From Nitrospira sp. KM1 (GTDB taxonomy: Bacteria; Nitrospirota; Nitrospiria; Nitrospirales; Nitrospiraceae), in contig NZ_AP022671.1 in NCBI RefSeq assembly GCF_011405515.1, positions 1,364,001 through 1,428,000 on the forward strand: 64,000 bases of DNA. Direction: 5' to 3'. Below the pieces are notes generated by a model. The model did not search any database, was not told the origin of the DNA, and saw only the letters and a list, made by a program, of their open reading frames with translations. Each line of letters opens with the position of its first letter. The stretch's first letter is position 1. Below are positions 34,418-46,640 of this stretch, one piece after another. Both the position numbers and the translations under genes were made by a program.

Positions 34418-36481
34418 ATGACCAATTCTCAGCCGTTCTACATCACGACCCCGATCTATTATGTGAACGATGTTCCCCACATCGGGCATGCCTATACGAC
34501 CATCGCCGCAGATGTTCTGGCGCGTTATTGGCGATTGCGCGGGCGCGACGTATTTTTTCTGACCGGCCTTGACGAGCATGGCCAAAAGGTCCAGCAGGCT
34601 GCGGCCAAAGCCGGGGTGGCACCTCAGACCTACTGCGACAATCTGGCGCCGAAATTTACGGAGTTGTGGAAACGTCTGGATATCCGTCCGGATGCTTTCA
34701 TCAGAACCACCGATCGCGAGCACGGACGCATCGTCCAACGGTACCTACAGGAACTCTTTGACACGGGTTTGATCTATAAAGATTCCTACACCGGATGGTA
34801 CTGCACGTTCGATGAGCGATTCTGGACGGAGAAAGATGTCACGGACGGACTGTGTCCTGACTGCAAACGGCCGGTCGAACAACTCAGCGAATCCAATTAT
34901 TTCTTTCGAATGGGCCAATATCAAGATCGATTGATCGACCATATCAAGATCCACCCCCGCTTTATCCGCCCGGAATCACGCCGGAATGAAGTACTGGGAT
35001 TTCTCCAATCGCAAAAGCTCGGAGACCTTTCAATTTCGCGTCCGAAAGCGCGCCTCTCGTGGGGGATCGAACTGCCGTTCGACAAGGACTACGTCACCTA
35101 TGTCTGGTTCGACGCGCTCGTCAATTACATCTCGGCTCTCGAATACAAACCGCCTTCACCATCAGTGGACACATTCTGGCCGGCCAATGTCCATTTGGTT
35201 GGCAAAGACATTCTCACGACTCATGCCGTCTACTGGTCCACGATGCTGATGGCGCTTCATCGGCCACTGCCGGAAACCATTTTTGCTCACGGATGGTGGA
35301 CGGTGAACGGGGAAAAGATGTCGAAGAGCCGCGGGAATGTCGTCGATCCCAATAAAATGCTGGAAGTCTATGGAGTCGATGCTTTCCGGTATTTCCTGCT
35401 GCGAGAAGTTCCATTCGGCCAAGACGGAGACTTTTCGGAACAGGCAATGGCAAGGCGAATCAACAGCGACCTGGCAAATGGGATCGGCAATCTCTTGAGC
35501 CGAACATTGACGATGATCGAGCGGAGTTGCTCGGGAACGATTCCGGATATGCCGAGAGATTACCTCGACGGCGAAGATGCGCGGAGGAAATTCCCGCTAC
35601 TCGTCCAGGCAAAGGAATCGCTCAAAACGCTGGGCAATCACCTGGACGAAATGTTCGATGGGTTCGAGTTCAGTAGTTTTCTTCTCCTTGTCACGAGCCG
35701 AGTTTCAGACGTCGATACGTTCATCGACAAATACGAACCGTGGAAGCTGGCGAAGGACCCGAGCAGACGAGAGGAACTCGATACCGTCCTGTATAGTGCC
35801 GCGGAGTGCTTGCGCATTTTAAGCCTTTATATTCTTCCAGTGATGCCTGCCACGGCGCACGGTATTGCAGAACAGTTGGGTCTTCATATCAATTGGGACT
35901 CTCCATTCTTGAAAGAGTCCGTCAAATGGGGTGAGTTGAAAAGTGGGACGAAGATTCGAAAAGGAAATGCCTTATTTCCCAGGGTTCTTGTGACTGAGTC
36001 GGGAGAGTATGATCTTGCAAGTGGAAAAGCCGAACTGTCGAAACTTCAAGGAGCCAAACCCGTGAGCGATTCTCCAATTCCGTCTCGACCAACCGTCGCC
36101 CCCTCGGCTGCCGCATCTCCGGCCTCTGCGCCACCTACAGGACCGCCTGCTGCGCCCCTCCAAATCACGATCGACGAGTTCATGAAGGTCCAACTCAAGA
36201 CGGCTAGGGTACTATCGGCTGAGCGAGTGCCCAAATCGGAAAAGCTTTTGAAACTCCAGGTATCACTGGGTTCCGAGCAGCGGCAAATCGTTGCAGGCAT
36301 TGGGAAGAAGTACGAACCCGAAAGCCTGATCGGCAAGACGATCGTTATTGTTGCGAACCTCAAACCGGCAAAACTCATGGGTCTTGAATCCCAAGGCATG
36401 GTCCTCGCCGCAGGCGACAGTGATGTACGAGGGCTGGTCACGTTTGTGGAAGAAGTCGATCCCGGGACCAAAGTCAAATGA
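34418..36481 (+). CDS. metG: Methionyl-tRNA synthetase
   Basis: 687 aa. The HIGH motif is PHIGHAY (about 22-28), the Zn-type insertion has CPDCKRP (about 146), the KMSKS motif is in GEKMSKSRGN (about 298-307), and a C-terminal tRNA-binding OB domain (about 590-687) follows a Pro/Ala linker. The Zn insertion has only one CxxC pair plus an isolated Cys, i.e. the reduced type. Its stop overlaps the next gene by 4 nt (ATGA). Confidence 0.96.
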   Translation: MTNSQPFYITTPIYYVNDVPHIGHAYTTIAADVLARYWRLRGRDVFFLTGLDEHGQKVQQAAAKAGVAPQTYCDNLAPKFTELWKRLDIRPDAFIRTTDREHGRIVQRYLQELFDTGLIYKDSYTGWYCTFDERFWTEKDVTDGLCPDCKRPVEQLSESNYFFRMGQYQDRLIDHIKIHPRFIRPESRRNEVLGFLQSQKLGDLSISRPKARLSWGIELPFDKDYVTYVWFDALVNYISALEYKPPSPSVDTFWPANVHLVGKDILTTHAVYWSTMLMALHRPLPETIFAHGWWTVNGEKMSKSRGNVVDPNKMLEVYGVDAFRYFLLREVPFGQDGDFSEQAMARRINSDLANGIGNLLSRTLTMIERSCSGTIPDMPRDYLDGEDARRKFPLLVQAKESLKTLGNHLDEMFDGFEFSSFLLLVTSRVSDVDTFIDKYEPWKLAKDPSRREELDTVLYSAAECLRILSLYILPVMPATAHGIAEQLGLHINWDSPFLKESVKWGELKSGTKIRKGNALFPRVLVTESGEYDLASGKAELSKLQGAKPVSDSPIPSRPTVAPSAAASPASAPPTGPPAAPLQITIDEFMKVQLKTARVLSAERVPKSEKLLKLQVSLGSEQRQIVAGIGKKYEPESLIGKTIVIVANLKPAKLMGLESQGMVLAAGDSDVRGLVTFVEEVDPGTKVK

Positions 36482-37335
36482 TGCGGGCGGTTGTCGTCAC
36501 ACCGTTGCTGCTGTTGTTCTTGTTTCTCCCCTTCCCCTGCCCTGCCCTGACGCCGGAAGAGGAACCTCCTCCCGATCCACACTTGAATGATCCGAAGCCG
36601 ACAACCATTGTCGTCCGCGTCGTCGCTCACGGGTCGATGGTCTTGGGGCGTGAAGTCGGCGGCGCCCGGATTACGGTGACGGATATTGCGACCCACGAAG
36701 TGTTGGCGACCGGGATTCAGCAGGGTGAAGCCGGCGATCAGAATCTCATCATGCGGACCCCGCATTTGATGGAAGAGCCGCTGTATAGCGCGCGCCCCGC
36801 GGCTGCATTCACCGCGACTTTGGAGCTGCGTCGTCCCACCGCAGTTGAAATCGCAGCCGAAGGCCCGCTCGCCTATCCCGCTTCCGCCCGGCGGGCGAGC
36901 AAAACAGTGCTTCTCATTCCGGGAGAGGATCTGACGAATGACGGAATCGTCCTGCATCTGAATGGCTACCTCGTGCAGATCGAGCATCCAAAGCCGGGGG
37001 AGGCATTAATCGCCAAGGACGATGTCAAATTGAGGGCCTCTATCCGCACCCTCTCCGGAGCTCCCGTCCGCCCGCATGGAGATTGGGACTCGAGGAAGAT
37101 CCGCATCTATGGTGAAGTCTTGGTCGGGGACCGGATCGTGGAGCGACTTCAGATGTTTTACGCGGGGGAGGGCGGAAATTTCGAAGCACCGTTTTTTGTT
37201 CCAGGGTCCAAGGAGGTTCCGGACGGACTGACGCTCCGTGTCGTCGCGGCCGATCTCTCCACCGGTAATTCCGGTGTGGGGACTGCCAAATATTCTGTCC
37301 TGAGTGAAAGGCTCAAGTCTTCTTCCCGACAATAG
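36478..37335 (+). CDS. Secreted protein of unknown function
   Basis: 285 aa. A signal peptide (hydrophobic residues 5-21, cleavage about 23) is followed by a Pro-rich linker and two beta-rich segments that look like Ig-like or surface-domain folds (TTIVVRVVAHGSMVLGREVG; GYLVQIEHPKPGEALIAKDD). The pattern resembles CARDB/transthyretin-like domains but none is certain. Coupled to metG through ATGA. Confidence 0.6.
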   Translation: MMRAVVVTPLLLLFLFLPFPCPALTPEEEPPPDPHLNDPKPTTIVVRVVAHGSMVLGREVGGARITVTDIATHEVLATGIQQGEAGDQNLIMRTPHLMEEPLYSARPAAAFTATLELRRPTAVEIAAEGPLAYPASARRASKTVLLIPGEDLTNDGIVLHLNGYLVQIEHPKPGEALIAKDDVKLRASIRTLSGAPVRPHGDWDSRKIRIYGEVLVGDRIVERLQMFYAGEGGNFEAPFFVPGSKEVPDGLTLRVVAADLSTGNSGVGTAKYSVLSERLKSSSRQ

Positions 37336-37476
37336 GCATCAGCTCCAACGCGGGTTTCTCCCACACCTCTGGCATCGCGCCACCACTAACAAATATCTGA
37401 TTTGTTTGACATTCCTTCCTCTTCCCGGGAACCTGACGTGGAGCTTTTCCGCATCGGTCATCCGTTCCTCGTCTGT

Positions 37477-37669
37477 ATGAAACTGTCAATCGTCATACCA
37501 GCATTCAATGAAATACCCCGGCGGTCCTTCGCAGTCTGAAAGGGATCCGCGTCATCTCCCACCATATCAATGCAGGCAAAGGAGAAGCGCTTTCGACCGG
37601 TATCTGAGCTGCCACAGGAGACATTGTGATCTTCCAAGACGCCGATCTTGAATATGCACCGGACCCCTG
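37477..37669 (+). pseudogene. Decayed GT2 glycosyltransferase (polyprenyl-phosphate sugar synthase type)
   Basis: The first 13 codons read MKLSIVIPAFNEI, the start of a GT2 enzyme, then the frame stops. From 37521 in another frame the sequence resumes the GT2 pattern (AVLRSLKGIRVISHHINAGK, GEALSTGI, a TGA stop, then AATGDIVIFQDADLEYAPD). About 25-30 residues between the parts are deleted. The DAD metal site survives, but frame breaks, an in-frame stop and the missing end show it is dead. Confidence 0.75.
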
Positions 37670-37918
37670 GTGTCCTCCTCACCCGACCAGGTTATCGAAC
37701 GATTGAGAAAAGAAGGCATTACCCATATCGTCCTCAATACAAGGGAGTTTAAGCGCCTTCGCGATACGTATCATGTACTGGAGTTTGATGGAGCAGACGG
37801 CCCGGTGCTCGATCAACGGCTCAAGCGCCTGCCACATTCAATGACGTTGTTGTTTGCCAAGAACCATGTGTACGTGTTTGAAATCCCACCTTTGCCACAG
37901 CCTGCCAAACATTCATGA
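37670..37918 (+). pseudogene. C-terminal remnant of a membrane glycosyltransferase or similar protein
   Basis: An 82-codon open stretch with GTG start. The text VIERLRKEGITHIVLNTREF and LFAKNHVYVFEIPPL reads like the extracytoplasmic end of PMT/GT39-type membrane glycosyltransferases that use polyprenyl-phosphate sugars. The membrane part is absent, so it is probably what remains after a deletion that joined it to the GT2 remnant. A small genuine protein cannot be excluded. Confidence 0.5.
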
Positions 37919-37994
37919 TACTGCCCCACCTGCTTCTCAGAGAGAGACATTCCAAGCACTTGCTGCGAATGGATGCTCGTGCGACACTAAGAAC

Positions 37995-38939
37995 GTGAGT
38001 TCACCAACAGCCTATCAGCATCTCCGGTCCCGCCTGCATCTCGCTTTGGGATTGAACGCTGTCATCATCTCTGCTGAGTTTGCCGGCGGATGGATGCTCA
38101 ATAGCATCGGTCTGATGAGCGATGCCGGTCACAATCTGATCGATCAGGGATCGTTGTTTCTCGCACTCTACGCGCACCTCCTCACAGCAAGGCCGGCTAC
38201 GGAGACCCGCACATTCGGATACCACCGCGCCGGCATCATTGCAGCGTTTGCAAACTCCTCGGTCCTCTTGTTCACGGCGCTTGGCATTGCGGTGGTGGGC
38301 ATTCAACGGCTCATGCACCCGGTGCCGGTAGACGGCGGATGGGTCATGGCCATTGCCGGCGTGAGCTTTATTGCCAATTTGGGTATCGCGTCTCTTCTCC
38401 AACACGGGGCGAAAGACGATCTCAACATTCGAAGTGCGTTCTGGCACATGATCGGCGATGCCTGGGTATCGCTCGGCGTGATCGTCAGCGGAGCCGGCAT
38501 TATGATGACCGGCCTCGTCGAACTCGATCCCTTGGTCAGTCTTCTCGTCGTAGGAGCCATTTTTTTCGGGGCCTGGCCGATCTTTAGGGAGTCTCTCGAC
38601 GTGTTGCTCGAGTCGGCCCCTTCTGCCGTAAAAGCGTCGCAAGTCGCCGCCGCCATCGAGTCGATCCCAGGGGTGGACAATGTGCACGATCTGCACATCT
38701 GGGCGATCGAACCACGGCTCATCATGCTAACCTGTCACGTGTTGGTTCGTGGGGACGACGAAGCCTTGACCAACTCACTGTTGGCGGCCATTCGATCGCG
38801 CATTACCGGAGATTTTGGCATCAAGCATATGACGATCCAGCTGGAAACCCATTGCACCCATCCGGATGTGAGGCATTGCAACCTGAACGTCCTCACTGAG
38901 CACCATCATGATCATGAGTCTCTTCACGTTCATCACTAG
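37995..38939 (+). CDS. CDF-family cation efflux protein, zinc type
   Basis: 314 aa from a GTG at 37995; the open frame goes back to 37854 but that part is uncharacteristic. Six membrane helices; the ion-site motifs are SDAGHNLIDQ (about 43) and HMIGDAWVSLG (about 151), that is H/D and D-type ligands of Zn2+/Co2+ carriers (CzcD/ZitB). A cytoplasmic domain follows and the C-terminus is His-rich (EHHHDHESLHVHH). It exports Zn2+ from the cytoplasm. Its stop codon shares a base with the inverted-repeat element that follows. Confidence 0.92.
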   Translation: MSSPTAYQHLRSRLHLALGLNAVIISAEFAGGWMLNSIGLMSDAGHNLIDQGSLFLALYAHLLTARPATETRTFGYHRAGIIAAFANSSVLLFTALGIAVVGIQRLMHPVPVDGGWVMAIAGVSFIANLGIASLLQHGAKDDLNIRSAFWHMIGDAWVSLGVIVSGAGIMMTGLVELDPLVSLLVVGAIFFGAWPIFRESLDVLLESAPSAVKASQVAAAIESIPGVDNVHDLHIWAIEPRLIMLTCHVLVRGDDEALTNSLLAAIRSRITGDFGIKHMTIQLETHCTHPDVRHCNLNVLTEHHHDHESLHVHH

Positions 38940-39325
38940 CAGGCTGTTGACAAAGTCGCTCATATCACCCACCCGCCCGGACGCGCCGAGACGCGTCTTC
39001 ACCAAGCTTTGTTCTCGCGGGATACTGCCGCCTCACTATCTCGGCGGCGTTCACAGGCGTGCCGTGCCTTATTCGGCACGGCGTGAACCTCAGAGGCTCA
39101 ACGTACCGCTCGGGAACACGACTGTTCCCACAGTCGGTGGGTGGGCGGGTGAGAACGGATACGCTTCGCCTCCAAGACACTGGGCGCTCACCGACTCGCG
39201 CCCGTCCGCAAACGTGGCGCTCATTATTCTTCGCGCCGCGGACTCGCTGCGGCCTTGGGGGAACCGACGCGTCTTGGTGCGTCGGGGCGGGTGGGTGAGA
39301 AAAGACGCCTTTCTGAACAGCCTGC
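38939..39325 (+). mobile_element. MITE-like inverted-repeat element, 387 bp
   Basis: Ends GCAGGCTGTT (38939-38948) and AACAGCCTGC (39316-39325) are perfect inverted repeats. Behind them, 38965-38997 and 39266-39298 are inverted repeats with 30 of 33 bases identical, so each end carries about 60 bp of imperfect terminal repeat. The rest includes a third related GGGCGGGTGAGAA copy near 39144 and a strong 8-bp hairpin (GCCGTGCC/GGCACGGC, about 39060-39080). No transposase frame is present, so any movement would be non-autonomous. No clear target duplication was found. Confidence 0.65.
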
Positions 39326-39404
39326 GGGACATGCTGATGGCAGCGGTGTCTCGGACACGACGTCATCGCCGAAGTCATTACAGGGTTTGTCACCACACTG
39401 CTAG

Positions 39405-40382
39405 ATGGCATCCGTGACGCAACCCCCTGTCCCTTTCTACATGCTGTGCGGATCACTCGGTGCCGGCAAGACCACATTATTGATGCGGCTGCTCGAATTT
39501 TGGAAAGGCCGGGGCCGGCGTGTCGGCGTGTTGATGAACGAGGCCGGCGAGGTCAGCATCGACGGACCGCGTGCGGGAGCCATCGCGGACCAGGTCATGA
39601 ACCTGGCAGGAGGTTGTGTCTGCTGTGATACGAAAGAGGACCTGTCATGGGGGATTGCGCAACTTGTTCGCGATGCCGGCTCCGATCTCCTGATATTGGA
39701 ATGTTCTGGGTTGGCCGATCCGGCTGAGGTCATCGACGCAGTTACCGATCTCTATACCGCAAGACTGGCCGCACTGGAGCGGGTGATCGCACTCCTCCAT
39801 CCCATCGCCCGGGAGCAGAGTCATTCCGCCCAATACGTCACCACGCAGGCAATCCGTTGCGCGGACGAGTTGATCCTGAACAAACGCGACTTATACGTGC
39901 CGGGGTATTGGGAGAAATTTAAGACGTCGATCCTGGAGCAGAATCCCCATGCCCGGGTCTGGGAAACCACCCACGCAAGAATTGACGCCGACGCCCTGCT
40001 GGAGCCGCAAACGACCCGCCCTGCGCCCTCGACGAACGTCGTGTTTGGTGCGGCGCCGGCAGGCGGCCGCCTGCGCGCGGATTACCATCCGATCGCCGTG
40101 ACGATCCGACTCACCGGACCGCTGAACCGCCTGCGGCTTCTTGCGTGGGCCAACACCTTGCCGCCGGGACTTGAACGGGCAAAGGGATTTTTCAGGTTCG
40201 TCGACGAACCGGGGCTGCAGGAGTTTCAGTACGCACTGCCCGGTCCAGCGACCATTGCTCCGGTCATGCTACTCGATGAGCCTGATCATGCCATTGTACT
40301 GATCGGAAGAGGGTACGACGCCGATCGTTACGGAGCCGAACTCTTGGCCTGCGTGGAAGGCGCAACGCCGGGAACCGGCTGA
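39405..40382 (+). CDS. CobW/G3E-family GTPase, putative metal chaperone
   Basis: 325 aa. Walker A GSLGAGKTT (16-24), a CxCC metal site (GGCVCCDTK, C71/C73/C74), Walker B-like ECSGLADP and NKRDL (G4) are present, and a C-terminal CobW_C domain (about 230-325) completes the family plan. These GTPases handle Zn, Co or Ni. The zinc-type CDF gene upstream suggests Zn homeostasis, though its repeat-rich spacer weakens the operon case. Its 3' end overlaps the convergent PAP2 gene by 55 bp. Confidence 0.88.
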   Translation: MASVTQPPVPFYMLCGSLGAGKTTLLMRLLEFWKGRGRRVGVLMNEAGEVSIDGPRAGAIADQVMNLAGGCVCCDTKEDLSWGIAQLVRDAGSDLLILECSGLADPAEVIDAVTDLYTARLAALERVIALLHPIAREQSHSAQYVTTQAIRCADELILNKRDLYVPGYWEKFKTSILEQNPHARVWETTHARIDADALLEPQTTRPAPSTNVVFGAAPAGGRLRADYHPIAVTIRLTGPLNRLRLLAWANTLPPGLERAKGFFRFVDEPGLQEFQYALPGPATIAPVMLLDEPDHAIVLIGRGYDADRYGAELLACVEGATPGTG

Positions 40383-40912
40383 CGGAATCTGGGCCACTGC
40401 AATAACAGCCAGGCGGCGGTGCCGCCAAACAGCGCCCCGAGGAACCAGCCTCCCAAAATATCCGTCACATAATGCGCGCCGATGAATACTCTGGCCAAAC
40501 CGATTGCCACGACCAGCGGCCAAGCGATCCATCCCGAACCGGGGTAGAGGACCTGGAGAAACGCAGCCGCCGCGGCCGTGTTGACCGCATGGTTGGACGG
40601 GAACCCAAAGGTCTTGCCGCATGCCTCGATCTGATGAAAATCGGCGATGGACATGCACGGACGCGGGCGGGCGACAAGATGTTTGACCTGTGCGCCGATA
40701 AAATCGACGAGACCGATCAACCCGCCCAGCACCGGCCCGGCGATGAACGCTTCGCGGGGCGCCAGCCATAACCAGTAGAGTCCGAGCAGAATGCCGGGTG
40801 CCCAGAGCAGATCGGGAGACGACAGCGTGAGCGCCAGCCAATCCAGCACGCCCGACCGCCCGGCGAGGCCGTTGACGGCGCGGAAAAGTGATTCATCCCA
40901 ACTCACGCGCAC
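40328..40912 (-). CDS. PAP2-family membrane phosphatase
   Basis: 194 aa. Catalytic signatures: KHLVARPRP (K-x6-RP), PSNHA (PSxH) and RVFIGAHYVTDI (SRxxxGxHxxxD-like). Several membrane helices surround them. It dephosphorylates lipid phosphates such as undecaprenyl pyrophosphate or phosphatidic acid. Overlaps the convergent CobW gene. Confidence 0.88.
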   Translation of the reverse strand: MRVSWDESLFRAVNGLAGRSGVLDWLALTLSSPDLLWAPGILLGLYWLWLAPREAFIAGPVLGGLIGLVDFIGAQVKHLVARPRPCMSIADFHQIEACGKTFGFPSNHAVNTAAAAAFLQVLYPGSGWIAWPLVVAIGLARVFIGAHYVTDILGGWFLGALFGGTAAWLLLQWPRFRQPVPGVAPSTQAKSSAP

Positions 40913-40963
40913 ATCTTAGCATGAGGCAAGACCACAGTGATGCTGGAAGCGCTCTTGCTCCGA

Positions 40964-41082
40964 GGAGGTTCAAACGGTTCGCCGGCAAAACCGCAGCGAG
41001 CGAGAGCCCGAGGCGTACGGTTCCGGGTACGTCGAGGGCTTGAGCGACGTGAGAACGAAGCCAGCGAGACGTTTCAACCTCC
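40964..41082 (+). repeat. 119-bp repeat with inverted ends (repeat A)
   Basis: The ends GGAGGTTCAAACG (40964-40976) and CGTTTCAACCTCC (41070-41082) are inverted repeats with one mismatch. Internal arms 40993-41013 and 41042-41060 reappear in the repeat at 41619-41758. The stop codon of the TonB-C-like gene begins at the next base. Confidence 0.65.
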
Positions 41083-41523
41083 TTACCGGGTGTGGAAATG
41101 GATACGCACCGTCAGTTCCCCATCGACCGGATCGTCTCCTTTCATTTGCGGATCGAACGTCCATCGCTTGAGAGCAGCCACGCCCGACACGGTGAGTTCA
41201 CGGTGCTTGCAGGGCTCAAGAACGACCACCGTCACCTTGGCATCTTTGGTGACCAGCACACGTGCTTTCATCCAATCGTCGAGCGCCGTCCCTTCGAGCG
41301 ACGGGGGAACCGCGGGCCAGGGAGTATTTTTGGCAACAGGCCCGAGCTGTTGATTCTTGTTCAGCGGAACCCCGTGGACATGAACTTCCGGAAGTTCCAA
41401 CACATCCTCTTGGTGATCGGACTCGTGCGTCGCGTCGTCACCGACCACCGCGAATGCGGGGGCCGGGACGAGCAGCACCGTTAGGCCAATGTATATGACC
41501 AGCCGGCGGCGAAAGCGACTCAC
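41083..41523 (-). CDS. Secreted protein with TonB C-terminal-like domain
   Basis: 146 aa. A cleavable signal peptide (cleavage after AFA, about residue 25) and no membrane anchor. The C-terminal VSGVAALKRWTFDPQMKGDD and the closing VRIHF strand look like the TonB C-terminal domain. It has no Pro-rich periplasmic span and no N-terminal anchor like canonical TonB. It follows the TonB-dependent receptor on the same strand; a periplasmic or accessory role there is inferred. Confidence 0.65.
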   Translation of the reverse strand: MSRFRRRLVIYIGLTVLLVPAPAFAVVGDDATHESDHQEDVLELPEVHVHGVPLNKNQQLGPVAKNTPWPAVPPSLEGTALDDWMKARVLVTKDAKVTVVVLEPCKHRELTVSGVAALKRWTFDPQMKGDDPVDGELTVRIHFHTR

Positions 41524-41618
41524 ACGTTCTCCTTTCTGTCAGGCATCGGATGTTCAAGCTGACCGGCATTTGCACCACCCTCCCCAGCGCGCCGGGACGC
41601 GCTCCGCTCCGGGCGGCC

Positions 41619-41758
41619 GCAGGGAGCGAGACCCCGAGGAGGTACATACCAAGCTTCGCTTGAACCGCTCGCTTCGATCACATGCGAGCGGATAGGTACT
41701 TGGCCTCCGGTTTCCCTAAACTCCTGACCGTTGATGGACCGAGCGACCGAGAACGAAG
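41619..41758 (+). repeat. Repeat related to that at 40964-41082 (repeat B)
   Basis: Arm 41619-41639 matches 40993-41013 at 19 of 21 bases, and 41741-41758 matches 41042-41060 with one 2-for-1 base change; the central parts differ. The centre here folds into a hairpin (CCGCTCGC/GCGAGCGG, about 41664-41693). It lies between the TonB-C-like gene and the TonB-dependent receptor. Confidence 0.5.
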
Positions 41759-41782
41759 TTGATGGCCTGTTTCAGCATCCAA

Positions 41783-44197
41783 TCAAAAGAACCATTGGGC
41801 CCGGAAGAAATACGACCTCGGCATACCGGCATGGGCGATGCCCAGACCGATGCTGCCTTCTCCCCGATTATAGAAATACTTCTGATCGAACATGTTGATG
41901 AGATCGAATCCCAACAGCATCTTCTGCCCATACCACGGTAACGGAATCGTGTGGGTAATCGAGGCATTGTATACGGTATAGGAATCCTCATGGGAGGAAT
42001 TCGTCTTCGCGCCTTCTTCCGCCGTGCGCAGACCCGATCCATACAGCATCTGTCCGCTGATGTTGGTCCGGTCCCACAGACGATAGGAGAGAACCGCCGA
42101 ACTCGTCATGAACTGGGAGTGATCACAGAAGACTCCACCCTTGGAATTGATATCGTCGATCTCGGCCTGTTCGAGCAGATACTGCCCGGATTGCAACCCG
42201 TACCCCTTGCATTGGCCCCACGCGACATTTCCACGACCGTATAGATTGTCGGTCAATTGCACTTTCAGCGCTCCATCGATGCCGCGCTGCCAGCCTCGCT
42301 CAAAGGCGAAGAAATTGAGCATCGGAGTCGAGCCGAATTGTCCGGCATCCGACAGATAGTGGGCCAGCTTGTAATAGCCGGTCAGCTCGAGCGTCGCATG
42401 CTTTCCGATGGCATGGTAGCTGCCGACTTCGAAGTAATGCGAGCGCTCGGCCCTTGGCCTGAAGCCGGTTGGATTTTCAGGTTGCGCCGTGGTGTCCTGT
42501 ACGTTCAAGCCGAGAAAGGCGATCTGCTCGACGTTGGGAGGAGTAAACAGTCTGCCATAGTAGGCATGAAAGGCATTCGATTGATTGAGTTTGTAGGTTG
42601 CTCCTATACGCGGACTGACCTGACCTTCGTTGTAAAAACCTTGAATGGCATCGCCGCGTACGCCCACGTTGAAGGTCCAGTGCTCGTTCAAGCTCCACTG
42701 ATCCTGAAGCCAAAATTCCTGCCGCGTCTGGATGTTCTGATTGGAGGCTTCCCTAGTGACGACCGGGCCGGCCGGTGCGCCCCCTCCGGTATCGAAGGCA
42801 AACACCTGGGCTGTATTGTTCGCTCTGCTGTAGTCAATCTGCATCCCCGATTTCACCACATGCTGATGATTGGGAATCCACGTATGATCGAGACGTATCC
42901 CTCCGGTATAGGCGCTCCGTTTCTGATTGGCCGTTTGCGCCCCGCCCACGTCATCCGAATAGGCCAGCGCGTTTAACGCATCCGTGTGAAAGTCGGCAAG
43001 GCCGCGCCGAAAATACGCTCCCACGCTAAAAAAACTGGATGCGTTGAGATCGTGTCGCCAGACCAATTGAGTATACTGATTGTTTTCCTTTTGATACTGA
43101 TCGACCGATTGGGAAGCACTGGGCGCAAAGCCGGCCGGGAGGAGCGCGAGCACATCGGGATTCGCCTCGAGGTTCGGGATGGTTGGAATCTGATATTTCG
43201 CAACCGAGTTCAGAAAGATCCAGCTGAAGTTGTTGTGATTGTCATACTGGTAATCACCTCGTAAATAGGTGTTGTTCTTCTCGCTTTGATTGTGCTCGTT
43301 CGTCTGGCCCAACGTCGGCGGCTCGATTCCACGGCTCGTGGTCACGTAACTGTTGAGAATATAGAATCTGACCTTCTCACCCACCGTCCCGCCGTATTCA
43401 AAGGAGGGATTCACGGTCTGATTGGAGCCGCCGAACATCTGAACCGAGCCAAATCCCGGTTTCGTGCCGCTCTTGCTGGTGATGTCCACGACCAATGCCG
43501 TCTTATTGCCGTACTGCGCCTCCATCCCGCCGAGAATAATGTCCGCGCGTTCCCATGCCCGAGGGGGCACGATATCGGCAAACGAACCAGACACCGAATC
43601 CGGAATCGGAATCCCATCGATCCGATATTGCTGATTGGCATGATCCTGACGGATGTGGGTCTGCTTGAGTGCTCCGTAGGCTACGCTGGGAACCGTAAGC
43701 AGGACCTCATAGGCATCGTTGTTGTTCCCCCTCGGTAACGCCTCGATGTCTTTTCTCGTGACCTGATAAGTTTCGCTCGAGGCCTTGTATTGAATCGGCG
43801 GCAAGGCGGAGACTACCTCCAATGCGATCTCATTGGTCTTGGAGAGCGTGAGCAGAACCGGTTTCGGCGGATCGGTCCCCAGGACCAGAACCAGATACTC
43901 GCTTCGATAGGCGTCCTGAACCGCGCTGATCGAATAGGTTCCGGTCGCCGGCACCGGTATGGAAAATTCCCCGCTCTCATCCGTGACCGCAGTCTCAACG
44001 ACCACGCCGTCCTGATCCTTCAGTTCGACAACGGCTTGAGCAACTCGCCTCAGATCCTGATTTTGCACTACTCCCGTGATGCTATTGGCTGATCCTGTCT
44101 CCGCGGCATGCAACTCCGGGCACCATCCCGTCTGTAGGGCGACGAACAAGACGACTGACCATACATGGAATATGAACGCACGATTGCCACGCTCCAT
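41783..44197 (-). CDS. TonB-dependent outer-membrane receptor with N-terminal carboxypeptidase-like domain
   Basis: 804 aa. A signal peptide (about 1-31) is followed by a CarboxypepD_reg beta-sandwich (SITGVVQNQDLRRVAQAVVE, 37-110), the plug (ALPRGNNNDAYEVLLTVPSV, about 155) and a beta-barrel ending in RAQWFF, the terminal Phe favoured by BAM. GGAGG 5 nt before the ATG. It imports a ligand energised by TonB. The neighbouring small His-rich protein and the zinc-type genes suggest a metal or metallophore, but the ligand is not evident. Confidence 0.9.
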   Translation of the reverse strand: MERGNRAFIFHVWSVVLFVALQTGWCPELHAAETGSANSITGVVQNQDLRRVAQAVVELKDQDGVVVETAVTDESGEFSIPVPATGTYSISAVQDAYRSEYLVLVLGTDPPKPVLLTLSKTNEIALEVVSALPPIQYKASSETYQVTRKDIEALPRGNNNDAYEVLLTVPSVAYGALKQTHIRQDHANQQYRIDGIPIPDSVSGSFADIVPPRAWERADIILGGMEAQYGNKTALVVDITSKSGTKPGFGSVQMFGGSNQTVNPSFEYGGTVGEKVRFYILNSYVTTSRGIEPPTLGQTNEHNQSEKNNTYLRGDYQYDNHNNFSWIFLNSVAKYQIPTIPNLEANPDVLALLPAGFAPSASQSVDQYQKENNQYTQLVWRHDLNASSFFSVGAYFRRGLADFHTDALNALAYSDDVGGAQTANQKRSAYTGGIRLDHTWIPNHQHVVKSGMQIDYSRANNTAQVFAFDTGGGAPAGPVVTREASNQNIQTRQEFWLQDQWSLNEHWTFNVGVRGDAIQGFYNEGQVSPRIGATYKLNQSNAFHAYYGRLFTPPNVEQIAFLGLNVQDTTAQPENPTGFRPRAERSHYFEVGSYHAIGKHATLELTGYYKLAHYLSDAGQFGSTPMLNFFAFERGWQRGIDGALKVQLTDNLYGRGNVAWGQCKGYGLQSGQYLLEQAEIDDINSKGGVFCDHSQFMTSSAVLSYRLWDRTNISGQMLYGSGLRTAEEGAKTNSSHEDSYTVYNASITHTIPLPWYGQKMLLGFDLINMFDQKYFYNRGEGSIGLGIAHAGMPRSYFFRAQWFF

Positions 44198-44294
44198 GAC
44201 ATCCTCCGCGACCGCTGATTGACGTTGGCGTAATGGACATGACGACGGCGCTGAACGATCAGGTCGTCAATCACATCCGGACGATGGTCGGGAA

Positions 44295-44621
44295 CTAGAT
44301 GCGGGGTGGCGCGCGCGACGGACCGACGGAGACGCATTCAACCGAGAGGAGAATACCGTACGACGGAACACCGGAGTGGCTGATGAGATCCCAGGCCGAG
44401 CGGATCGGTCCGCCCGTGTCGATGGATCCGGCCGTGTGGTGTTGGACCCATTGGCACAGGTCGTTGTCCGAATGCTCATGCCCGTCGGTATCGGCAGCCG
44501 CCAACTCGTGATGCACGTCCTGTGCAACGGCGAACGGCGCGATGGACAGGAGGAGGGCGATCAACCCGAGGGAGATCAGCCGGCTGATTCGGGCGTCATG
44601 GAGGAAATGACGATGTCTCAT
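44295..44621 (-). CDS. Small His-rich secreted protein upstream of the receptor
   Basis: 108 aa from the internal ATG at 44621. A signal peptide ends at PFAVA (about 34). The mature part is His/Asp-rich (HEHSDNDLCQWVQHHT), recalling DUF2946-type proteins found beside metal TonB receptors. It probably shares the transcript with the receptor gene 97 nt downstream. Metal binding is inferred from composition. Confidence 0.55.
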   Translation of the reverse strand: MRHRHFLHDARISRLISLGLIALLLSIAPFAVAQDVHHELAAADTDGHEHSDNDLCQWVQHHTAGSIDTGGPIRSAWDLISHSGVPSYGILLSVECVSVGPSRAPPRI

Positions 44622-44712
44622 GAGCAGGGCGCAGTGAGTACCACAATCCAAAGAAACCTGTCAAACGGACGGATATGATCCGCGCATGGCTCAGAGTCTT
44701 CGCCTGGAGTTG

Positions 44713-44741
44713 TGGACATTACGGCCGGATTTCGCTATGCT
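44713..44741 (+). promoter_or_regulatory. Putative promoter for the DAHP synthase gene
   Basis: TGGACA and TATGCT separated by 17 nt, 28 nt before the ATG at 44770. It supports that start over the upstream ATG at 44686, which lies before the promoter. Confidence 0.5.
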
Positions 44742-44769
44742 TCGGCACCAAAAGTACAAAGGCCCCCTG

Positions 44770-45828
44770 ATGAACCGCCCGCTCGACAATCAACACGTCA
44801 TAGAAATCAAGGCGCTGCCGTCGCCGCGGTCGATCAAGACCAAACTGCCGATTACAGACCAAGCAGCGGCACTGGTCGTGGAGACCCGGGAAGCCATTCG
44901 CCGGATCCTCCATGGACAGGACCGCGAACGCTTGCTCGTCATCGTCGGCCCCTGCTCGATCCATGATCCCGACGCGGCCTTCGAATATGCGGCCAGACTC
45001 AAGCCGCTTGCCGATAGCCTGCGCGACAGACTCCTGATCGTCATGCGCACATACTTCGAGAAACCGAGGACGACCGTGGGCTGGAAGGGGTTGATCAATG
45101 ACCCTCATCTGGATGGAACGTGCGATATCGCCACGGGAATGGAGTTGGCGCGTACCCTCCTGTTGAAACTGAACCAGTCCGGCATGCCGTGCGCGACCGA
45201 ACTTCTCGATCCCATCGCCCCTCAATACATTGCCGATCTCATCAGCTGGACCGCCATCGGAGCGAGGACGACGGAAAGCCAGACCCATCGTGAAATGGCG
45301 AGCGGCGTGTCGATGCCGGTCGGTTTCAAGAATGGAACGGAAGGCAGTCTCCAGGTGGCGATCAATGCCATGACTGCTGCGCGCACACCGCACCATTTCG
45401 TCGGCATCAATGCGGACGGTCAGACCTCCATCATCAAGACCACGGGCAACCCGGACCGCCACATCGTCCTAAGAGGCGGCGGAGGAAAAACCAACTACGA
45501 CGCCGACCACGTTGCGCGGGCGGAAGCTGCGGTGGCCGGCGAGCAGATCGCCCGGCCCATCATGATCGACTGTTCACATGACAATTCGAGCAAAGATCAC
45601 CGGCGGCAGGGCCCGGTGGCCCGCGAAGTGCTTCGCCAGTTCAAGGAAGGACGGCAGTCGATCATGGGCTTGATGTTGGAAAGCAACCTTAACGCTGGGA
45701 AACAGACGTGGAGGCAGGGAACGGCCCTCGCCCACGGGGTCTCCATCACCGATGCCTGCCTGGGCTGGGAAGAGACCGAGCTTCTTCTGAACGAACTGGC
45801 CGATTCACTCGTTGCCAAACCCGCCTGA
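44770..45828 (+). CDS. 3-deoxy-7-phosphoheptulonate (DAHP) synthase, class I
   Basis: 352 aa, the length of E. coli AroF/G/H. VGPCSIHDPDAA, RTYFEKPRTTVGWKG and GARTTESQTHREMASG are class I signatures; DCSHDNSSKDHRRQ near 262 contains metal and substrate residues. It condenses PEP and erythrose-4-phosphate, the start of the shikimate pathway. AAAGG 7 nt upstream supports the start. Which feedback type it is cannot be read from sequence. Confidence 0.93.
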   Translation: MNRPLDNQHVIEIKALPSPRSIKTKLPITDQAAALVVETREAIRRILHGQDRERLLVIVGPCSIHDPDAAFEYAARLKPLADSLRDRLLIVMRTYFEKPRTTVGWKGLINDPHLDGTCDIATGMELARTLLLKLNQSGMPCATELLDPIAPQYIADLISWTAIGARTTESQTHREMASGVSMPVGFKNGTEGSLQVAINAMTAARTPHHFVGINADGQTSIIKTTGNPDRHIVLRGGGGKTNYDADHVARAEAAVAGEQIARPIMIDCSHDNSSKDHRRQGPVAREVLRQFKEGRQSIMGLMLESNLNAGKQTWRQGTALAHGVSITDACLGWEETELLLNELADSLVAKPA

Positions 45829-45860
45829 TTTCCACACCGGCTCCATACGGCACCCGTCCA

Positions 45861-46640
45861 ATGCTGATCGATACCCACACGCATCTCGACGATGCCCGGT
45901 ACAACGACGATCGAGACCTCATGATGGCCCGGGCGAAGGAGTCTGGCGTGGAGGCCTTCATCACCATCGGCTGTGATCTTGCGACCAGCAGAGCCGCCGT
46001 CGATTTGGCCGACCACCATCCTGTTGTCTACGCGTCGATCGGCGTGCATCCGCATGAAGTCATCCGCATCGGCGAAAATTGGTACGATGAATTCCGATGC
46101 CTTGCCCGCCATCCCAAGGTCGTGGCCTACGGCGAAATCGGTCTCGATTACCACTACAATCATTCACCTCCCGAGGAACAACGAACACGTTTTCGAGAGC
46201 AGCTCCAACTCGCACGGGAGCTGAAACTGCCCGTGATCATTCACACCAGGGAAGCACAAAGCGATACGATCACCATCTTACGGGAAGAAAAGGCTTCGGA
46301 AATCGGCGGGGTATTTCACTGTTTTTCCGGCGACGCCTGGCTTGCCAAAGATGCACTCGACCTGGGATTTTACTTGTCCTTTTCGGGTATTCTGACATTT
46401 CCCAACGCCAAGATGCTGCGCGAAATTGCAGGGCAGATTCCTTTGGACAGAGTACTGATCGAAACCGACTGTCCCTACCTCACCCCCGTGCCCTACCGCG
46501 GGAAGCGCAACGAGCCTGCCTACGTTTCGCTTGTCGCCAAACAATTGGCGGCGATCCATGCCGGCCGCCAAGATCTTTCAATCGAACGCATTGGCGAGTT
46601 GACGACCGAGAATGCCAAGAGACTGTTCAAAATCGGTTGA
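45861..46640 (+). CDS. tatD: TatD-family metal-dependent hydrolase
   Basis: 259 aa. The HxH motif is THTHLD (residues 5-10); EIGLDYHY (about 92-99) and ETDCPYLTPVPYRG (about 204) are further metal and substrate positions. TatD nucleases act on DNA ends and in quality control. The ATG at 45861 lies within a longer open frame that overlaps the DAHP synthase gene; the true start is set by the HxH motif. Confidence 0.93.
   Translation: MLIDTHTHLDDARYNDDRDLMMARAKESGVEAFITIGCDLATSRAAVDLADHHPVVYASIGVHPHEVIRIGENWYDEFRCLARHPKVVAYGEIGLDYHYNHSPPEEQRTRFREQLQLARELKLPVIIHTREAQSDTITILREEKASEIGGVFHCFSGDAWLAKDALDLGFYLSFSGILTFPNAKMLREIAGQIPLDRVLIETDCPYLTPVPYRGKRNEPAYVSLVAKQLAAIHAGRQDLSIERIGELTTENAKRLFKIG

Follow-up and report, generated by a model that had tools for sequence, protein, structure and literature searches.

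In the window, that is, the whole 64,000-nucleotide stretch of DNA analyzed here (part of a 4.5-Mb single-contig genome), the unit at 44621-41083 on the minus strand is tentatively read, with somewhat less than an even chance of being right, as a metal-repressed operon for uptake across the outer membrane, most likely of zinc, in which a soluble protein with a TonB C-terminal domain (CTD) docks on the receptor and probably accepts the metal. The reading is built on gene order, conservation, fold, the lack of a membrane anchor, sequence motifs, a spacer of fixed length, an excess of C over G, co-variation and the synteny with zinc genes in relatives. A more specific form of it, in which a TonB CTD freed from its anchor carries a zinc-binding segment to one dedicated receptor and the operon is under a zinc-responsive RAPP arrest leader, is doubtful as a whole; if true, both the soluble metal acceptor of TonB fold and the zinc-sensing CruR-type leader would be new. 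The exit of metals from TonB-dependent receptors into the periplasm is poorly understood, and a soluble TonB-CTD that is dedicated to one receptor and keeps its metal ligands would be a concrete candidate for the acceptor. A CruR-like leader, in turn, would extend metal sensing by nascent chains past copper.

The unit begins with a putative CruR/CutF-like leader ORF (44295-44621), followed by an intergenic region of 97 nt (44198-44294), the gene of a TonB-dependent receptor (TBDT) with an N-terminal CarboxypepD_reg domain (41783-44197) and the gene of the predicted soluble periplasmic TonB-CTD protein of 146 residues, hereafter TonB-C (41083-41523), all on the minus strand. The next gene downstream, on the same strand, encodes a PAP2-superfamily phosphatase (40328-40912); it lies between CobW and TonB-C, was missing from the gene list of the sequence-only reading and is present in 77 of the 80 named loci, and its membership in the operon is uncertain. 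A CobW/COG0523 GTPase with a GCVCC motif (39405-40382, plus strand; cobW 1e-34, CobW_C 1e-10) and a CDF exporter (37995-38939, plus strand; Cation_efflux 3e-37, ZT_dimer 1e-11) are convergent neighbours outside the receptor/TonB-C operon. CobW was found in 72 of the 80 named loci, a count that would include paralogues. The exporter scores 247.8 bits against TIGR01297 (cut-off 82.35), and its nearest equivalog, ZitB, gives 181.5 bits, below the cut-off of 408. At the other end, a DAHP synthase gene (44770-45828, plus strand) is the divergent neighbour and has its upstream region in common with the leader. The five genes named in the sequence-only reading (CDF, CobW, receptor, His-rich ORF and TonB-C) are all present. 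An Rfam scan of 36000-46000 gave nothing above gathering scores. Between CDF and CobW (38939-39325), most of the space is taken up by a nested inverted-repeat element, with outer arms of 20 nt (85% complementary) and inner arms of 33 nt (91% complementary), which looks like a small mobile element.

The receptor contains both a plug and a beta-barrel according to profile matches (barrel 1e-17, CarboxypepD_reg 8.5e-11, Plug 4e-5). The domain previously described as carboxypeptidase-like is a regulatory-like beta-sandwich and no peptidase; the receptor N-terminus also matched NCBIfam NikL (4.3e-5), far below the cut-off, and the NikL identity was rejected, the match being taken as the beta-sandwich domain only. 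His181 and His186 are conserved in the plug region, and Cys663 and Cys691 are invariant in a family alignment of 40 sequences. The AlphaFold model of the receptor (pLDDT 56.9, plug unresolved) is too weak to add to the profile evidence, and a sequence search of the PDB with the receptor gave no match.

The TonB-C gene is not a local oddity; it is conserved across the order, more than by chance. Of the 175 family genomes, 148 contain homologs (106 of the 114 high-quality ones), with 62-80% identity over most full-length matches, and homologs also occur in another family (f2) of the same order. A phylum-wide draw of 395 genomes yielded 128 with a TonB-C match, all but four of which belong to these two families. 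The receptor was found in 149 of the 175 family genomes and in 184 of the 235 genomes of the order. A hand tally over the 175 family genomes gives 142 with the two genes together, 20 with neither, 6 with TonB-C only and 7 with the receptor only. In 72 of the 80 named loci the gene directly upstream of TonB-C, in the same orientation, is the receptor (gap of 28-323 nt), and 63 of these 72 also have the leader upstream. Eight named loci lack the receptor; a contig end lies no more than 245 bases from the start of six of them, but not of L164 and L198. Because the unit is near-universal in the sampled Nitrospira family, it is relevant to the trace-metal nutrition of nitrifiers. Among the 15 loci of the second family (L089-L103), eight are paired, L097 is near a contig end, and six (L089, L090 and L099-L102) carry TonB-C with no receptor. 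These six unpaired loci, together with a second receptor copy in genome G001 that has no intact TonB-C, indicate that the pair is not obligatory in cis. In the four of these unpaired loci that were inspected (L089, L090, L099 and L102, all of one genus), the genes immediately preceding TonB-C are, by eye, those of a histidine kinase and a response regulator. L164, which is titled as a Saprospiraceae MAG, bears a Nitrospira-type TonB-C and a PAP2 gene and is probably a misbinned or chimeric contig. A search of a plasmid collection returned one weak match only.

Synteny across the family supports the earlier description of the region as one of zinc or metal handling, with zinc the probable metal. 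ZigA, a zinc metallochaperone, was detected at the cut-off used in 9 of the 175 family genomes; it is 1.3-16.8 kb from the receptor in seven of them and on another contig in two. In genome G001 the second receptor copy, 76% identical, has as its neighbours a Fur-family gene, two further RGPP leaders, a Cys-free S18, an S14 paralogue and a CobW that passes the ZigA equivalog cut-off (614.9 vs 600 bits). ZigA, like ribosomal paralogues that do without zinc, belongs to the classical response to zinc starvation. Moreover, 16 of the 33 family genomes that have the Fur-family gene carry it within 20 kb of the receptor (nearest, 0.5 kb), 4 carry it farther away on the same contig, and the remaining 13 have it on other contigs or have no receptor; f2 Fur matches were left out of this count, and the binomial values for these distances take no account of relatedness among the genomes. 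At L092, a MerC-like gene and the same Fur type flank the unit. The linkage to zinc-starvation genes thus holds for relatives, 7 of the 9 with ZigA having it no farther than 17 kb away, but not for the window's own genome, in which no orthologue of that ZigA or Fur was found at the cut-offs used. Of the Zur boxes to which the sequence-only reading had pointed, no known form was recognised: matches to four Zur consensus strings, one of them a longer form of another and none necessarily the site used in this phylum, were not above chance. A Fur-box consensus also had no match above chance. Literature searches on zinc, Zur and TonB-dependent uptake in Nitrospira found nothing, and those on copper uptake in Nitrospira found nothing direct among the papers listed.

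Since CutF-like leaders with His-only motifs precede nickel/cobalt genes, HupE/UreJ, in the available portion of the source (PMC9973294), the identity of the metal has to be judged from the genomic context. The metal could also be copper (or nickel/cobalt), as in most operons headed by CruR or CutF, with the nearby zinc genes coincidental; CruR-headed TBDT operons are known for copper (available text of PMC9426467), and the HupE/UreJ genes behind His-only leaders fit nickel or cobalt. However, the CXXC metal motif is absent from all 91 distinct leaders, which carry C-x-x-V/L/I at this place, and the receptor is found clustered with ZigA, S14/S18 paralogues and members of the Fur family, so that this explanation appears unlikely and zinc is favoured on genomic context.

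The predicted structure of the TonB-C protein confirms a TonB-CTD fold at about residues 60-146. The protein matches Pfam TonB_C with an E-value of 7.5e-5 (23.5 bits, slightly below the cut-off of 24.6), its family profile matches TonB2 in the PDB (E 1.2e-4), and the model, in which pLDDT is 80-96 for the greater part of the domain, can be aligned with known TonB CTDs at Z up to 10.5 (Neisseria TonB CTD). It has the CTD fold of a TonB energy transducer but not the His-bearing inner-membrane anchor. The genome has eight other TonB_C loci; seven of them show the typical TonB signature, a hydrophobic N-terminal segment with a His, and the eighth (L008) has a signal-like start. The long Pro-rich periplasmic linker of energy transducers is also missing: about 61 residues separate the hydrophobic segment from the Pfam match, as against 118-266 residues between the segment and the domain in the other eight loci, and even the uncleaved protein would hardly be able to span the periplasm. 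The gene starts with GTG, with AAGGAG five bases upstream, and, of 111 distinct homologs, 107 have a small-x-small site at the end of the hydrophobic segment, ahead of the mature part; no lipobox was reported for the protein. Together with the short linker, these features bear out the earlier claim of a cleavable signal and no anchor. That the true sequence might include an anchor is excluded, because the open frame upstream of the GTG adds only five codons. Literature searches found nothing matching a soluble TonB CTD among the papers listed and nothing relevant on MxcH, a possible receptor-TonB fusion.

The N-terminal part of the mature protein is rich in potential metal ligands. THxxDHxxD occurs in 109 of the 111 distinct sequences (L083, whose IHVHG is missed by the pattern, and L104, a different TonB, were set aside), an HVHG-type motif is also kept, and the whole pattern THxxDHxxD...HVHG is near-invariant; a Cys lies within 50 residues before HVHG in 69 of the 111, mostly in the signal region where read. 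These motifs in front of a CTD suggest a soluble metal acceptor that would dock on its own receptor. Co-variation was assessed in 56 of the 126 loci, chosen for distinct receptors and for sufficient length of each of the six genes. The distances of TonB-C and the receptor show a partial correlation of 0.393 after removal of DAHP synthase, CobW and PAP2, which 0 of 999 permutations reach, and the leader co-varies with neither the receptor (partial correlation -0.043) nor TonB-C (-0.065). As neighbouring genes co-vary among themselves (PAP2 and CobW, 0.70 given DAHP synthase), linkage may account for part of the receptor/TonB-C signal, and the co-variation of the genes of the block makes a shared transfer possible. 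A receptor-directed role of the anchor-less TonB-C protein is supported by the gene pairing and the co-variation. Receptor identity to the window copy falls into two levels, about 73-79% and 60-70%, which do not follow the boundaries of genera; this looks like an exchange of two types of receptor.

Such a role might also be that of a competitor or gate, the soluble CTD occupying the TonB box of the receptor at low demand and so blocking the energised TonB. Force cannot be transmitted by a CTD that has neither anchor nor linker, and the co-variation with the receptor fits a competitor too; however, two products of the same unit would rise together, and the conserved metal-ligand motif would be superfluous for pure competition unless it were switched by metal. 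We regard competition as rather improbable, and docking for metal acceptance is preferred.

For the first gene, the sequence-only reading had proposed a His-rich small secreted protein. The ORF, its signal peptide and its His-rich motif (HH...DxDGHEHSDxDLCQWVQHH in the window) stand, but the ORF is better read as a putative CruR/CutF-like arrest leader than as a secreted metal protein. Among 126 loci, 91 distinct leaders were kept after exclusion of truncated and identical ones. The motif HH..(D)xDGH(E/Q)HSDxD(L/I)CQWVQ is invariant in 14 sequences and shows a few end-position variants among the 91. The C-terminus carries RAPP in 84 and RGPP in 7; in 78 of the 91 two residues separate this motif from the end, as they do in the window (RAPP). 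All 91 have exactly 43 residues between CxxV and R[AG]PP, despite a mean identity of just 42% over this stretch, and all 91 show an excess of C over G on the coding strand around the leader stop and in the intergenic region (peak 0.19-0.22; the value inside the receptor gene is -0.016). That the ORF encodes a true secreted metal-binding protein and is not a regulatory leader, to which reading the signal peptide and His-rich motif would be suited, is therefore improbable, given a spacer fixed in length although weakly conserved in sequence and the RAPP/RGPP near the stop with the C>G bubble.

In the available text on CruR (PMC9426467), the leader has RAPP, a 45-residue spacer conserved to 1-2 residues, a 162-bp intergenic region, a C>G bubble and a TBDT downstream, and RAPP/RGPP leaders ahead of TonB-dependent receptors are widespread according to the accessible part of PMC12992588. 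The Nitrospira leader shares with CruR the C-terminal RAPP, the near-fixed spacer, the position as first gene before a TBDT and the C>G bubble; because the second Cys of CXXC is missing, we call it CruR-like and not CruR. The DUF2946 profile (PF11162) matches 10 of the 14 alignment members at E up to 10 (best 8.7e-4) and does not match the window leader, and a DUF2946 search of the window's own genome gave 0 matches. A second RGPP leader family, with a spacer of 42, was seen at L033:5919-6233, L033:9796-10107, L069:18665-18973 and L073:15880-16143, where the leaders lie near zinc-type CobW genes, a Fur-family gene or the receptor.

The closest known arrangement is cruR-bfrG-bp2921 of Bordetella pertussis (a DUF2946 uORF and a TBDT), which has the same order of signal-peptide leader with RAPP, near-fixed spacer and C>G bubble, gap and TBDT, whereas the Nitrospira leader has CxxV instead of CXXC and a zinc instead of a copper context, and its third gene encodes the soluble TonB-CTD protein where that of B. 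pertussis encodes a PepSY_TM protein. CutF-like leaders (Rhodobacter capsulatus, His-only clusters) are similarly exported small ORFs with a metal motif and a C-terminal PP motif before a metal gene, but differ in the motif and the downstream gene. TonB, HasB and FusB share with the TonB-C protein the CTD fold (Z up to 10.5) and the TonB_C sequence match, but not its cleavable signal, short linker, preceding His/Asp segment and lack of a membrane anchor. The Zur-regulated ZnuK and ZnuM of Caulobacter are also TonB-dependent receptors in a zinc context; in contrast, the Nitrospira unit has no recognisable Zur box, and the available portion of the Caulobacter source describes neither leader control nor a TonB-CTD partner.

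For the preferred reading, an uptake operon under a metal-responsive leader, we infer arrest, metal identity, docking, metal binding and hand-off as follows. The leader would be translated first, and at low metal the ribosome would stall at the RAPP end and mask a C-rich Rho-loading region, so that transcription could continue into the receptor; metal on the nascent His/Asp/Cys motif would release the stall, and Rho would then terminate transcription. The metal itself, or a chelate, would be imported by the receptor, with the energy supplied by one of the ordinary anchored TonB proteins of the genome. The TonB-CTD of the soluble third-gene protein would serve as a docking module on the periplasmic face of the receptor, placing the His/Asp-rich N-terminal segment (THxxDHxxD...HVHG) at the receptor exit to accept the metal. 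A relay, in which an anchored TonB takes the LPEVHVHG segment of the TonB-C protein as its TonB box and the CTD of the TonB-C protein in turn pulls the receptor, is very improbable: by eye, LPEVHVHG is similar to the VPEI(L)VKD boxes that other receptors of the genome carry, and it is the top-scoring window of the protein and forms a short strand in the model, but this strand has low model confidence, and the best score against a PSSM made with 11 distinct boxes from those receptors is reached by 1752 of 5000 shuffles and not significant, so that LPEVHVHG was rejected as a TonB box and is a lead only.

Elsewhere in the window's genome, about 25 of the 36 plug-domain matches fall within one 165-kb stretch (G000:C1:3818084-3983105), at the start of which canonical TonB genes are located.
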